64,000 nucleotides of DNA. Origin: Rhizobacter sp. Its GTDB lineage: Bacteria > Pseudomonadota > Gammaproteobacteria > Burkholderiales > Burkholderiaceae_C. A model generated the notes under the pieces. The model was not told the DNA's origin and did not search any database. It saw nothing but the letters and a program-made list of their open reading frames with translations. Positions within the stretch are counted from its first letter, which is position 1; each line of letters starts with the position of its first letter. Shown in pieces: positions 1,600 through 48,385 of the stretch. The translations under genes were made by a program, and so were the position numbers. Location: NCBI GenBank assembly GCA_021153565.1, contig JAJKJU010000006.1:1-64000 (forward strand). The letters run 5' to 3'.

Positions 1600-2709
1600 A
1601 TGACATCACATCGATTGATCCAACTCGCCCTCGCCATGGGTGGCCTGTGCTGCCTGGTCGCGCCGGCCTACGGTGTCGAGTTCAGGGCCGATGGGCTCGT
1701 GAGCGATGACATCGCGTTGCACCCGGCCCAGGTGGAGGACAAAGGCCTTGTGAACGCCTGGGGAATGTCCTTTTCACCGATGAGTCCCTTCTGGGTCTCG
1801 TCCGCCGATGGCGGCAACTCCGGGGTCTACCGTGTGAATCCGACGACGCAGGCCACGACCAAGGAGCCTCTTACCGTCAGCATCGTCGGCAACCCGACCG
1901 GGCAGGTGTTCAACGGCAACACTGCAGCCTTTCATAACGATCGCTTCCTCTTCGTCAGTGAAGATGGGACCGTGTCCGGGTGGCGAGGTGCGCTGGGTAC
2001 GACCGCCGAAACCCTTGTGGCGGGGAGTGCTGGCAACAGCTACAAAGGCGCGGCCTACGCCACGATCGGCCTCAACAGCTATCTGTACGCCACCAATTTC
2101 TCTGCAGGAAAGATCGACGTCTTCAAAGGCGACGGCGGGTCGCCGACGCTCACAGGCAACTTCACTGATCCGACAGTTCCCGCGGGATACGCGCCCTTCA
2201 ACATCCAACTCCTGGGCAGTAGCCTGTACGTGACCTACGTAAAGCAAACCGCCGACAAAGCCGACGAGGTCGCCGGCGCGGGATTGGGGATGGTCGACGA
2301 GTTCGATCTGCAAGGCAACCTGGTAGGACGTGTCGCAACCGGCGGCACGCTCAATGCGCCCTGGGGTCTGGCTATCGCGCCCGGAACTTTCGGCTCCTGG
2401 GCCGGTGCGCTGCTCGTAGGCAACTTCGGTGACGGCCGCATCAATGCGTTCGATGCGAGCACACATTCCTTCCTGGGCCAAGTGCTCGCTGACGGTGGGG
2501 CGCCGCTCGAAATCGACGGTCTGTGGGCCATCTCTCCCGGCAACGGCATCGGGGCAGGAAGCATTCAATCGCTGTACTTCACCGCGGGGCCGGCCGAGGA
2601 AACGCATGGCTTGTTCGGCGTGCTCACGCTAGTGCCCGAGCCGTCGACCACCGCGATGGTCGCCTTGGGCCTGACGCTGATCGCCGCTTTCGCGCGACGT
2701 CGGCACTGA
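1600..2709 (+). CDS. TIGR03118-like protein with PEP-CTERM sorting signal
   Basis: Signal peptide; NAWGMSFSPMSPFWVSSADGG-type repeats; C-terminus VPEPSTTAMVALGLTLIAAFARRRH. Confidence 0.85.
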   Translation: MTSHRLIQLALAMGGLCCLVAPAYGVEFRADGLVSDDIALHPAQVEDKGLVNAWGMSFSPMSPFWVSSADGGNSGVYRVNPTTQATTKEPLTVSIVGNPTGQVFNGNTAAFHNDRFLFVSEDGTVSGWRGALGTTAETLVAGSAGNSYKGAAYATIGLNSYLYATNFSAGKIDVFKGDGGSPTLTGNFTDPTVPAGYAPFNIQLLGSSLYVTYVKQTADKADEVAGAGLGMVDEFDLQGNLVGRVATGGTLNAPWGLAIAPGTFGSWAGALLVGNFGDGRINAFDASTHSFLGQVLADGGAPLEIDGLWAISPGNGIGAGSIQSLYFTAGPAEETHGLFGVLTLVPEPSTTAMVALGLTLIAAFARRRH

Positions 2710-2716
2710 CATGCCC

Positions 2717-2749
2717 GCATGGCGCGAACGATCCTCGTTCGCGCCATGC
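2717..2749 (+). terminator. Intrinsic terminator-like hairpin, 15-bp perfect stem
   Basis: gcatggcgcgaacga-tcc-tcgttcgcgccatgc followed by gtctttcgttt. Confidence 0.7.
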
Positions 2750-2877
2750 GTCTTTCGTTTGCATCCAAGGCAAAGCGCGTGTGTCTACCGCCTGCGGGTC
2801 AGCGTGTAGATGCTGCGTGCCCATTTCAGACCCGAGTTGCGCAAGCAGTCCGCGGATTAGGATCAGGCTTAGGCTTA

Positions 2878-3045
2878 GAGGCTGAGAGTATTTCGATCAT
2901 GCCCGCTCATCACGCCAAAAGCCCCCTGCTCGTCGTTGCAAATGCTCGCCATAGCCCGCCATAGCCAAGCTATGGCTGCGCTTTGCGCCTAGATCAGGCG
3001 CCTTTTGACGTGCTGCTCGGACACGTTCGAAATACTCTCAGCCTC
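2878..3045. mobile_element. MITE-like palindromic element, copy A (full length), flanked by TTA/TTA
   Basis: TIRs 2878-2896 and 3027-3045 (GAGGCTGAGAGTATTTCGA); direct TTA at 2875-2877 and 3046-3048. Confidence 0.75.
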
Positions 3046-4032
3046 TTAGGCGAGACCGCGCACGCGGGCCATCAGGCGAACAAGTCCCAGCAGTGAATCG
3101 AGGTGCGGCGTCGCAAGCTTCAGATGGTCCCCGATCTCCTTGACCGAGCCCACCAGTGCATCGATTTCCAGCGGCCGACCTGCTTCCACGTCCTGCAGCA
3201 TCGAGGTCTTGAACGCGCCCAGCTTGCGAGTCACCTCGTGCCGTTGTTGCGGGGTCTGGTCGATGGGAAGACCAATGCGGCCACCGATCGTGTTGGCCTC
3301 GATCATCACCGCACGGCAGAAGTCGCGTACCAGCGGATCGTCGAGCACGAGGTCGGCCGTTGCGCCGGTCAATGCCGACACAGGGTTCATCGTCATGTTG
3401 CCCCACAGTTTGAACCAGATGTCGCGCTGGATGCGATCGCTTGCCGTGACGGCGAAGCCGGCGCGCGTGAGCAAGGCTGCCAGGCCTTCGACACGCGAAG
3501 ACATGCCACCACGCGGCTCGCCGATGACGAGCCCGTTCCCCATCACGTGATGCACCCGTGCAGGCGCCGGCGCGGCGCTGCTGGCGTGCACGACGCAGCC
3601 GATCACGTGGCGGATGGGGATCGCGTTGCGCACCACATCGCCCGCATCCACCGACTGCAGATGCAGCCCATCGCACTCGCCGCCCAGTCCGTCGAAGAAC
3701 CACCAAGGCACGCCATTCATTGCGACAAGAACCATGGTGTCGGGATGAAGAAGTTGGCGCACTGCAGGCGCGACGGCGGCGAGTGCCGGGCCCTTTACGG
3801 CGACGATGACGAGATCTTGCAGTCCGAGTTCCGCGGGGTCTGCGCTGGCTCGCAACTCGACGCGCCTGGTCGTGCCGTCGCTGTCGACCTGCAATCCGTC
3901 GCGTTTCAATGCGGCCAGCGTGTCGCCACGGGCCAGCGCAGTCAACTCGATCTCCCCTGCTGGAATGCGCGACCCAAGCCATCCGGCGAACAAGCCGCCG
4001 ATGGCGCCTGCGCCGACGATGCATATTTTCAT
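3046..4032 (-). CDS. panE: 2-dehydropantoate 2-reductase family (PanE/ApbA)
   Basis: MKICIVGAGAIGGLFAGWLG Rossmann motif; IWFKLWGNMTMNPVSALTG. Confidence 0.88.
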   Translation of the reverse strand: MKICIVGAGAIGGLFAGWLGSRIPAGEIELTALARGDTLAALKRDGLQVDSDGTTRRVELRASADPAELGLQDLVIVAVKGPALAAVAPAVRQLLHPDTMVLVAMNGVPWWFFDGLGGECDGLHLQSVDAGDVVRNAIPIRHVIGCVVHASSAAPAPARVHHVMGNGLVIGEPRGGMSSRVEGLAALLTRAGFAVTASDRIQRDIWFKLWGNMTMNPVSALTGATADLVLDDPLVRDFCRAVMIEANTIGGRIGLPIDQTPQQRHEVTRKLGAFKTSMLQDVEAGRPLEIDALVGSVKEIGDHLKLATPHLDSLLGLVRLMARVRGLA

Positions 4033-4064
4033 GATCGGTTCTCCATCTGTCTTGAAAAGGCGGT

Positions 4065-5177
4065 TCAGCCCATCCAGCGCTCTGTCGCCCATTCGACCAC
4101 GGCAGGCAAGGGCAGGCCGACGCGCCGTTGCTGCCGCAGGCCGGCAGCGTCGTTGCCCGCGAACAGGCTGTCGCGCAGCAAGTTGCTCGCGTTCAGTGCG
4201 CGCAAGTCGAGCGCATGTTCATCGATGCGCGCCAGGGTGCGCAAGATGTCATCGCGCAGCTTGTGGCGCTCCTTGGTCTTCGGGTCCACGATCTCGCCGT
4301 CGAGGCCGAAACGGCAGGCCTGGAAACGGTTGAAGGTGTAGACGAGGTAGTCGTCTTCTGCAGGTTCGAAGGGCTTTTCTTCGCGCAAATAGCGGCAAAG
4401 GCATTGCAGGTAGCACGCCAATGCCGCGGCCTTGTCGACCGTGAGAGGTGTGTCGCAGACGCGCAGTTCGATGGTGCCGAATTCGGGCTTGGGCCGGATG
4501 TCCCAATAGAAGTCTTTCATCGACTGCACGACGCCGGTGCTCGTCATCTTGTCGAAGTAGTGGCCGAAGTCGTCCCAAGTCAGCGCGAAGGGCGCGCGGC
4601 CCGACAACGGAAAGGCGAACACCGAGTTGAGCCGGGCCGAATCGAAGCCCGTGTCCGTACCCTGAACGAAGGGCGACGATGCCGACAGCGCGATGAAGTG
4701 CGGCACGTAACGTGACAGTGCATGCAGGAGCCACAGCGCCGTGTCGCCGTTCTCGCAGCCCACGTGCACATGTTGTCCGAACACAGTGAACTGTTTGGCG
4801 AGGTAGCCGTACAGCTCGCTGATGTAGTGGAAGCGCTCGGTCGGGTAGATCTGCTGCGCGCTCCAATGCTGGTAGGGGTGTGTGCCGCCGCCGGCGATTC
4901 CGATGTTTAGCTTGCGCGCGCCGTCAGACAACTGCCGGCGCAAGTCTTTCAGTTCGTCGAGCAGCGGGCCGTGCTCGGTCTGGATGGACGAGCCGATCTC
5001 GATCATGCTCCGCGTGATCTCAGGCTTTACATCCCAGGCGCCGCTGTGGTTGGCGAGGACGCGCAAGAGGTCCTCGGCCTGCGGCGCGAGGTCGAAGTCG
5101 TGCGTGCTGACGAGCTGCAGCTCGAGTTCGACGCCGAGCGTGAGTGGTGCAGACGGTGTAAAGGCGGCGAGGCTCAT
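4065..5177 (-). CDS. Carboxylate-amine ligase, YbdK family (glutamate-cysteine ligase type 2)
   Basis: [56 protein letters not shown]. Confidence 0.9.
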
Positions 5178-6421
5178 ATGCTGGGCTCCGTCTCAGATTC
5201 GCGGGCGATTTGCTTGAGCGCGAAGGTGGTCCACAAGGGCCCTGTCAATTGCATCAAGGTGGTAGCGGCAAGCAAAGCCTGCAATGCCCATTTGTCCACA
5301 CCCGGGAACTGCGACGCCCAGATGAAAGTATCAGCAGCCAGCAGCACAGCAAGACTGCTCATTGGTTGCAGCGCGAGGATGAGTGCGCCCGATTGGCGCC
5401 AGCCGAGTCCGCTGGGTTTGGCGAGCAGCAGCACGGCGATGGCCTTTCCGGCGGCGCGTGCCACGATGATCGCGAGCACCGAGGGCCACAGCGTCCCGAT
5501 GTGATCGAGCGTGAGCAGCAGGCCCAGGGAAATGAAGAGCACGACACCGAGTGCGGCTCCTGCCGATCCGAGCTGCGGCTCGACAGTGAGGCCATGCCGC
5601 ATGCGGGAGCGGGCCACCACGCCGGCGACGAGCAATGCAAGCAAAGGCGACAGGGTCCATTGCACAGCAAGCATGCTCGCGATGGTGACGACCGCGATTT
5701 GCAGCACAGGCATCGTGCCTGTACCGTGCACGCGCCTGGCCAGCAGGTCGAGCAACAGGCCGCACACGGCGCCGAGCAGGAAGGAACCGGCCACGACGTA
5801 AAGAGCACCAGTGCCCGTCGAGACGAGGTCGTGTTCAGCTGACGCAGCGAACACGCGCCAGACCCTGAGGCTCAGCATTGCCATCACGCTGTTGATTGCG
5901 GTCATGAGCAAGAGCCGCTCGGTGACTTGTCCGCGCGGTCGGATATCGTGCAGCACCGCGAGCGTGATAACGGGCGAGGTGGACATCGCGACGATGCCCG
6001 CCACGGCCGCAGAGAGCATCGGCACCCCGAGCCAGTTCAGCAAGAACGTCACGGCAGAGCCGGCGAGCGCGCCTTCGAGCAGGCAGGTCACGGCGAGCGA
6101 TGGGTTGTCAATGAGCCAGCGTGGCCGAATGCGCGTGCCAAGCTCGAACACCAGGACGCCGATCGCGAGATCTATGAGCGGCTTCCAGGTGTCGAGCTCC
6201 GCGCGCTCGAGAATGCGCAGCACGAGGGGGCTCGCGAGCACGCCCACCAGCATGTGCCCACAAGGCCGCGGCAATCTTATGTAGCGGTGCAGCAAGTCGG
6301 CCAGCACGACGGCAAACACCATCAGCAAGGCCAGGCCCAGCACCGGGTCGGCCAGGCGCAGCACCTCTAGCATCCACGCAGGCAAGTCGGCAATGCTCGC
6401 CAGGAAGGTCAGGTCGGTCAT
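5174..6421 (-). CDS. Cation:proton antiporter (CPA2/Kef-type)
   Basis: Multi-TM protein; [24 protein letters not shown] motifs; 4-nt overlap with the YbdK start. Confidence 0.85.
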
Positions 6422-12642: not shown

Positions 12643-12686
12643 GGTGCATTGCACACAAGTGGACAGGTCCGATTTGGACGGCCTGA

Positions 12687-12851
12687 GAGGTTGAGAGTAT
12701 TTCGATCATGCCCGCTCATTCACGCCAAAAGATCCCTGCTCGTCGTTACAAATGCTCGCCATAGCATGAGCTGCACTATGGCTGCGCTTTGCATCTAGAT
12801 CAGGTGCCTTTTGACGTCCTGCTCGGACACGCTCGAAATACTCTCAGCCTC
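12687..12851. mobile_element. MITE-like palindromic element, copy B (full length), flanked by TGA/TGA
   Basis: Near-identical to copy A outside the centre; TGA at 12684-12686 and 12852-12854. Confidence 0.75.
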
Positions 12852-12879
12852 TGACCTGAAGCCATCGGACACATCGGAC

Positions 12880-24945: not shown

Positions 24946-25026
24946 GAGGCTGGGAGTATTTCGAACGTGTCCGAGCAGCACGTCAAAAGGCGCCGGATCT
25001 AGGCGCAAAGCGCAGCCATAGCTTGG
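24946..25026. mobile_element. MITE-like palindromic element, copy C (one half only), between livK- and livM-like genes
   Basis: gaggctgggagtatttcgaacgtgtccgagcagcacgtcaaaaggcgccggatctaggcgcaaagcgcagccatagcttgg matches the reverse complement of the right half of copy A. Confidence 0.7.
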
Positions 25027-33864: not shown

Positions 33865-33946
33865 GGGGCTGAGAGTTTTTCGATCCATGCCCGCTCGTCA
33901 CGCCAAAAGCCCCCTGCTCGGACATGATCGAAATACTCTCAGCCTC
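33865..33946. mobile_element. MITE-like palindromic element, copy D (internally deleted)
   Basis: ggggctgagagtttttcga...gccccctgctcggacatgatcgaaatactctcagcctc; arms joined at CTGCTCG. Confidence 0.7.
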
Positions 33947-48206: not shown

Positions 48207-48297
48207 CTGTGTCTCCTGAGTTGCAATCCTCGCGAGCGCGGGATGATACGTGAGGGGGCTTTCCAAGCTGTCTTGTTCGCTTTTCCCCGCACCAAAG

Positions 48298-48385
48298 AAA
48301 AAAGCCCGAGGTCTTGCAACCTCGGGCTGAATCCACCAAGAGGAGGTGGAGGAGACAATCGGTTGGCCCTCAAAAACCGCCAATG
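48298..48385 (-). ncRNA. Putative sRNA or ilvA leader attenuator with UCCUCUU-loop hairpin and intrinsic terminator
   Basis: Minus strand: hairpin UCCACC-UCCUCUU-GGUGGA (48332-48350); terminator gcccgagg-ttgcaaga-cctcgggc-TTTTTT (48304-48327). Confidence 0.5.

Follow-up and report, generated by a model that had tools for sequence, protein, structure and literature searches.

A Burkholderiales MITE family probably moved in trans by an IS1182 subgroup, with probable directional insertion at C-TGA-G

The palindrome at the end of panE and the size of its family

The window analysed here, a 64,000-nt stretch of the genome of Rhizobacter sp. (the host), carries a panE-like ORF whose stop codon directly adjoins a 168-bp palindrome. 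The preliminary description of this DNA had reported a palindrome with perfect 19-bp inverted ends, direct TTA repeats on both sides, and the right TTA serving as the stop codon of the minus-strand ORF, and each of these observations was reproduced from the sequence. The palindrome (copy A), the ORF, and the other copies in the window are as follows:

2878..3045, plus strand: copy A, full MITE, 168 bp; the strand is that of the core orientation GTTGCAAATGCTCGCC
2878..2896, plus strand: left terminal inverted repeat of copy A, GAGGCTGAGAGTATTTCGA, 0 mismatches
3027..3045, minus strand: right terminal inverted repeat of copy A, 0 mismatches
2875..2877, no strand: target-site duplication TTA, left copy; target C-TTA-G
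3046..3048, no strand: right-hand TTA of the target-site duplication; serves as the stop codon TAA of minus-strand panE
2931..2992, plus strand: central core hairpin of copy A, common to other genera and to palindromes with other ends
2947..2966, plus strand: 10-bp tandem duplication in copy A, CGCCATAGCC twice
3046..4092, minus strand: panE-like ORF, ketopantoate reductase type, 348 aa; its stop codon is the duplicated target
12687..12851, plus strand: copy B, a full MITE of 165 bp; duplicated TGA at 12684-12686 and 12852-12854
24946..25023, minus strand: copy C, a half copy with TGA at the left flank that breaks off at the palindrome centre
33865..33946, plus strand: copy D, an 82-bp derivative that has lost the core

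Copy A exceeds the usual length of 158 or 159 bp mainly through the CGCCATAGCC tandem duplication at its centre, and copy D apparently lost its core when the segment between the CTGCTCG direct repeats of its arms was deleted. A panE relative in a congener of the host, examined for comparison with copy A, ends in TGA and carries no element.

With up to 3 mismatches allowed, the end sequence occurs 7 times in the window where 0.01 occurrences would be expected by chance, and chance is thereby excluded. When the search was extended to the host draft genome (5.38 Mb in 381 contigs, 92% complete), we found 710 ends at a tolerance of 2 mismatches, and the reversed pattern used as a control gave none, so the four copies from which the family was originally described were a large underestimate. 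A detailed set of host copies was compiled from 1.21 Mb of the genome, which includes the window and was partly picked for containing matches, and this set yielded 72 end pairs, with 158 and 159 bp as the commonest lengths. Many host contigs start or stop about 80 bp inside an element, and it is probable that the palindrome itself breaks up the host assembly.

Beyond the host, 400 genomes of the bacterial family were sampled, and 28 of them had ends with up to 2 mismatches. Four congeners of the host had no ends at all, indicating that the amplification is restricted to this species or to a narrow lineage; strong amplification was also seen in a second genome, that of Massilia glaciei. The same element was recovered at 60 fetched loci and at 80 loci of the genome collection, mostly with a length of exactly 159 or 157 bp, and a phage search returned no match to it. 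The analysis confirmed a real, large MITE family with relatives across many Burkholderiales genera.

Ends, hairpin, and core of the element

The typical element is a MITE of 158 or 159 bp with 19-bp ends and without an ORF of transposase size, and the family end in its full form reads GAGGCTGAGAGT[A/C/T]TTTCG. Alignment of 34 copies gave 159 columns, and the 159-bp length is maintained across genera without gaps. The consensus folds over its whole length, with a free energy of -82 kcal/mol for the host and -102 kcal/mol for the other genera. Within the stem, 17 pairs of the 34-copy alignment were altered on both sides, and the cells with changes on both sides numbered 65 compared with 19 in shuffles, none of the 500 shuffles reaching 65. 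This covariation may reflect selection for the hairpin; another reading is the correction of imperfect palindromes by template switching.

The central 50 bp are 86-94% conserved in plasmid palindromes (L163-L168) from Cupriavidus, Ralstonia, Variovorax, Mitsuaria, and Comamonas, the arms and ends of which are different. The Variovorax palindrome lies directly after a stop codon and has TGA on both sides. One core in the host likewise sits in a palindrome with other arms (L144, around position 12724, on host contig C68), and the exact core pattern, searched in 300 genomes of the order of which few were from the bacterial family, was found in the host only. The same ends also surround other interiors (142 bp in genomes G285 and G106, and 160 bp in G073), and copies of 42-57 bp reduced to the ends occur in the host and elsewhere; copy D of the window is a deletion product of this kind. 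Judging from these combinations, the ends and the core look like separable modules. A 228-bp copy in genome G129 (L218, 2517-2744) has an extra hairpin of about 69 bp within one arm.

Neither the element nor the core reached the gathering score of any Rfam family, and a permissive Rfam search of positions 2700-3200 gave a single chance-level match outside the element. Elsewhere in the window, positions 48296-48357 on the minus strand matched the Rfam family Betaproteobacteria_toxic_sRNA (RF02278) with 60.7 bits (gathering score 50).

Target site, polarity, and position at stop codons

Tabulation of the flanking trinucleotides extended the TNA duplication seen at copy A to the family as a whole. 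Among the 70 host copies with readable flanks in the 1.21 Mb, 50 had identical 3-bp flanks (24 TCA, 23 TGA, and one each TTA, CGA, and AGA), and an identical 3-bp duplication was found in 82 of 94 non-redundant copies of other genera. The rare duplicated triplets are CGA, AGA, TTA, and TAA. In the rebuilt targets, C precedes and G follows the triplet, with a consensus of C-TNA-G; G follows CTGA at 22% of genomic sites, but does so in 33 of 48 targets in the host and in 56 of 82 in other genera. The target is thus a short, nearly palindromic C-TNA-G with a 3-bp duplication.

Empty sites were sought with a composite query of rebuilt empty sites. Close relatives (Extensimonas) had empty alleles at four loci, each contiguous and with TGA or TCA present just once where the element inserts, and one of them coincides with the stop of a phaB-like gene; the preliminary reading of the palindrome as an insertion is thereby borne out in relatives. 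At L337 of Massilia glaciei (2707-3183), three 157-bp copies lie head to tail in the same direction with exactly one TGA between them, an arrangement that is expected if insertion regenerates CTGAG at the junctions. The flank of one locus in the composite query (L201, query positions 363-418) is a separate repeat of about 56 bp, found in genomes G163 and G249 and in dozens of near-identical copies in Extensimonas genomes.

For the other genera, polarity was scored on the 94 non-redundant copies oriented by their core. TGA lay on both sides of 79 of these copies, and TCA on none. The host contains two sublineages: copies with the right end ...CGAG had TGA in 36 cases and TCA in 2, whereas copies with the right end ...CGAA had TCA in 17 cases and TGA in 2 (Fisher test, p = 1.9e-10). 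Inspection of the ends showed TGA ahead of those that have C or A at position 13 and TCA ahead of those that have T there, so that the outer ends account for the polarity in both host sublineages; the base-13 pair is C/T in 79 of the 94 copies of other genera. The second host sublineage resembles a version of the first in which the interior has been flipped with respect to the ends. Base 13 may therefore set the polarity, but copies in which both ends have A at this position still follow the polarity of their sublineage, which makes base 13 a marker of the polarity that perhaps does not cause it. Copy A falls in the second sublineage (right end ...CGAA), and its TTA is the panE stop on the opposite strand, as the polarity predicts.

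The elements are also found at gene ends in excess: the TGA is usually a stop codon, and in other genera the majority of copies sit exactly on one. Of 42 copies at the 60 loci of other genera, 29 mark the end of an ORF with 200 or more codons on the TGA strand, while 16% of the unoccupied CTGAG sites used for comparison do so (p = 4e-12); at about 10% of the copies at these loci, an ORF with 150 or more codons ends on the opposite strand. Stop and intergenic positions were then classified with a codon-composition gene caller, since longest-ORF calling mislabels many sites as in-gene in these GC-rich genomes. With this classification, the ratio of stop to intergenic positions in other genera was 54:20 for the elements and 46:117 for unoccupied CTGAG sites (p = 1.5e-10), and in the host 16:24 and 63:520, respectively (p = 5e-6). 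Since stops are in excess over intergenic sites, a purge of in-gene insertions alone is not enough. Transposition biased towards gene ends and long-term retention at gene ends are both possible contributors.

Candidate mobiliser, rival readings, and relation to known elements

A scan of the genome collection found one complete element of IS size with these ends, a 1657-bp element at 3831-5487 of locus L308 in a Burkholderiales draft genome. Its right end, GAGGCTGAGAGTTTTTCGGG, matches the MITE ends, its left end has C at position 4, and TGA is present on both sides. The encoded protein of 488 aa contains the domains DUF772 and DDE_Tnp_1_6, and scores 355.9 bits on the NCBIfam IS1182 model (NF033551, cut-off 270) and below the cut-off on IS5 models. 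In genome G203, the same end adjoins a contig-edge fragment that is 63% identical to the L308 element. Related IS1182 elements in a congener of the host (L381), in Rhizobium, and in Bradyrhizobium have GAGNCTGTGAA-type ends with TCA or TGA duplications (TCA/TCA in L381 and L395, TGA/TGA in L396). Other IS1182 elements of the bacterial family (L432-L437 and L427) have GAGGCTGTGTGAAAAC ends and flanks that suggest a 4-bp duplication, which indicates that the IS1182 group with GAGNCTGNGA-type ends is a distinct subgroup. The host assembly had no match to P0001 at E values up to 1e-10, and its matches to NF033551 were all sub-threshold, with no intact IS1182 transposase among them. Multicopy IS often drop out of draft assemblies, and a true absence of the IS1182 partner from the host and its loss in assembly are equally possible. 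The presence of IS1182 was not clearly enriched among the MITE-bearing genomes.

Bacterial MITEs are mobilised in trans by IS with the same ends, and from the shared ends we infer that an L308-type IS1182 transposase moves the MITE. Taken together, the family and its ends, the duplication, the polarity, the stop-codon excess, the empty sites, and the IS1182 element with matching ends in another genome, all of them read from sequence, point to what is probably a Burkholderiales MITE moved in trans by the IS1182 subgroup that has GAGNCTGNGA-type ends and duplicates a 3-bp TNA target, and inserted directionally into C-TGA-G. We propose that an IS1182-type transposase would recognise the two near-identical ends of the MITE and insert it into C-TGA-G, or rarely into another CTNAG (CTTAG for copy A), with duplication of the three central bases. 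The TGA strand would read into the end that has C or A as base 13, and the complementary TCA would flank the end that has T as base 13. With TGA as the usual duplicated triplet, an insertion exactly on a stop codon would restore the stop, and the stop codon would therefore be a harmless landing place. Because the element starts with G and ends with C, CTGAG could be regenerated at both junctions, which would permit head-to-tail arrays.

The preliminary description had preferred a non-autonomous transposon to a REP sequence and named the IS1031 subgroup of the IS5 family as the candidate mobiliser. The terminal inverted repeats, the TNA duplication, the many copies, and the empty sites uphold the former view; the mobiliser it named did not stand. 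The directionality and the preference for stop codons are not visible within the window by itself. The IS1031 subgroup of IS5 makes a TNA-type 3-bp duplication, and together with GAG-type ends this would fit a MITE moved by an IS1031-type transposase, except that the TNA duplication also occurs in the IS1182 subgroup and so is not specific. In the host genome, DUF4096 had no match above the cut-off, no DDE_Tnp_1 match lay inside an element with these ends, and the host family searches yielded no linked gene; the complete element with these ends carries the IS1182-type transposase of L308. We therefore consider an IS5/IS1031 origin highly improbable. A REP-like element moved by a single-strand HUH/Y1 transposase, with the left TGA as the target and the right TGA as part of the element, would give the strict polarity at TGA directly, and would agree with the long hairpin with its conserved mismatches and with a Y1_Tnp gene in most genomes carrying the element. 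Such co-occurrence is uninformative, as Y1_Tnp is found in 296 of 401 genomes of the bacterial family, and none of the fetched Y1 loci has MITE ends nearby, so that the repeats are neither linked nor phyletically tied to Y1 genes. The preference for G 3' of the insertion point, the duplication of rare triplets on both sides, and the same ends on the L308 element also argue against a Y1 mechanism, which is very unlikely.

A different question is whether directionality arises at insertion or afterwards. Polarity and stop excess could result from selection after blind insertion, the survivors being those in which the stop is restored and the hairpin lies in sense; this is compatible with an IS1182-mobilised MITE and competes with the directionality only. 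Copies on stop codons make up a larger share in other genera than in the host with its heavy amplification, as selection would have it, and a hairpin right after the stop could serve as a 3'-UTR structure, with which the hairpin covariation would agree. Against this, no TCA duplication occurs among the 11 copies in other genera at which no ORF of 60 codons ends, and the host polarity tracks the ends in two sublineages of opposite core orientation, which means that the sense direction of the core is not what is kept. Moreover, stops are about 7-fold over intergenic sites, although a simple in-gene purge should leave both. Selection as the source of the directionality thus appears doubtful, and directional insertion is the more probable reading. 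In such directional insertion at a stop, the asymmetric TGA would be read in register with a difference between the ends.

The family resembles the IS1182 subgroup with GAGNCTGNGA-type ends in its terminal sequence, in the 3-bp TGA/TCA duplication, and in the C and G around the triplet, and differs from IS1182 elements in being a MITE without an ORF, 10 times shorter, and with a hairpin interior. IS1272, which has been placed in the IS1182 family, replaces palindromes and makes no duplication (PMC5678879). As in bacterial MITEs generally, the element is short, non-coding, bounded by terminal inverted repeats, flanked by a target duplication, and present in many copies; the Acinetobacter element MITEAba12 is reportedly an example. 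Unlike such MITEs, it shows directional insertion and a preference for stop codons, keeps its 159 bp without gaps in many genera, folds into a covarying hairpin of nearly full length, and has a core found also in palindromes with unrelated ends. It shares the TNA-type 3-bp duplication with the IS1031 subgroup as that subgroup is generally described, but no associated transposase of that subgroup was found and its complete relative is IS1182. REP/BIME sequences with RAYT are likewise extragenic hairpins often located just downstream of genes, and the present family differs from them in its defined 19-bp ends, its target duplication, and the lack of a link to Y1 genes. As a separate observation, Y1_Tnp usually occurs in one or two copies per genome, and most of the matches listed resemble REP-associated transposases (about 230-350 aa).

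In the openly accessible literature, which our search covered, we found no earlier description of these sequences, of IS1182 in connection with MITEs or stop codons, or of a Comamonadaceae or Burkholderiales MITE. As far as this literature shows, the kind of element is known and the combination of features is undescribed. We tentatively suggest that an IS1182-type DDE system inserts directionally into stop codons, restores the stop and regenerates CTGAG, and that the 159-nt hairpin, its core exchanged among elements whose ends are unrelated, would thereby come to lie behind genes in one orientation and form a ready-made 3'-UTR module. If true, such one-way landing of a DNA transposon on stop codons would represent a natural and harmless targeting of gene ends by a DDE enzyme, and would raise the question of how a transpososome whose ends are nearly identical can read a triplet that is asymmetric. 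For annotation, the family would account for the splitting of such genomes into hundreds of contigs at one palindrome. The family also provides a large natural data set, with an amplified host on one side and low-copy relatives with empty alleles on the other, in which the insertion preference and later selection would be separable.
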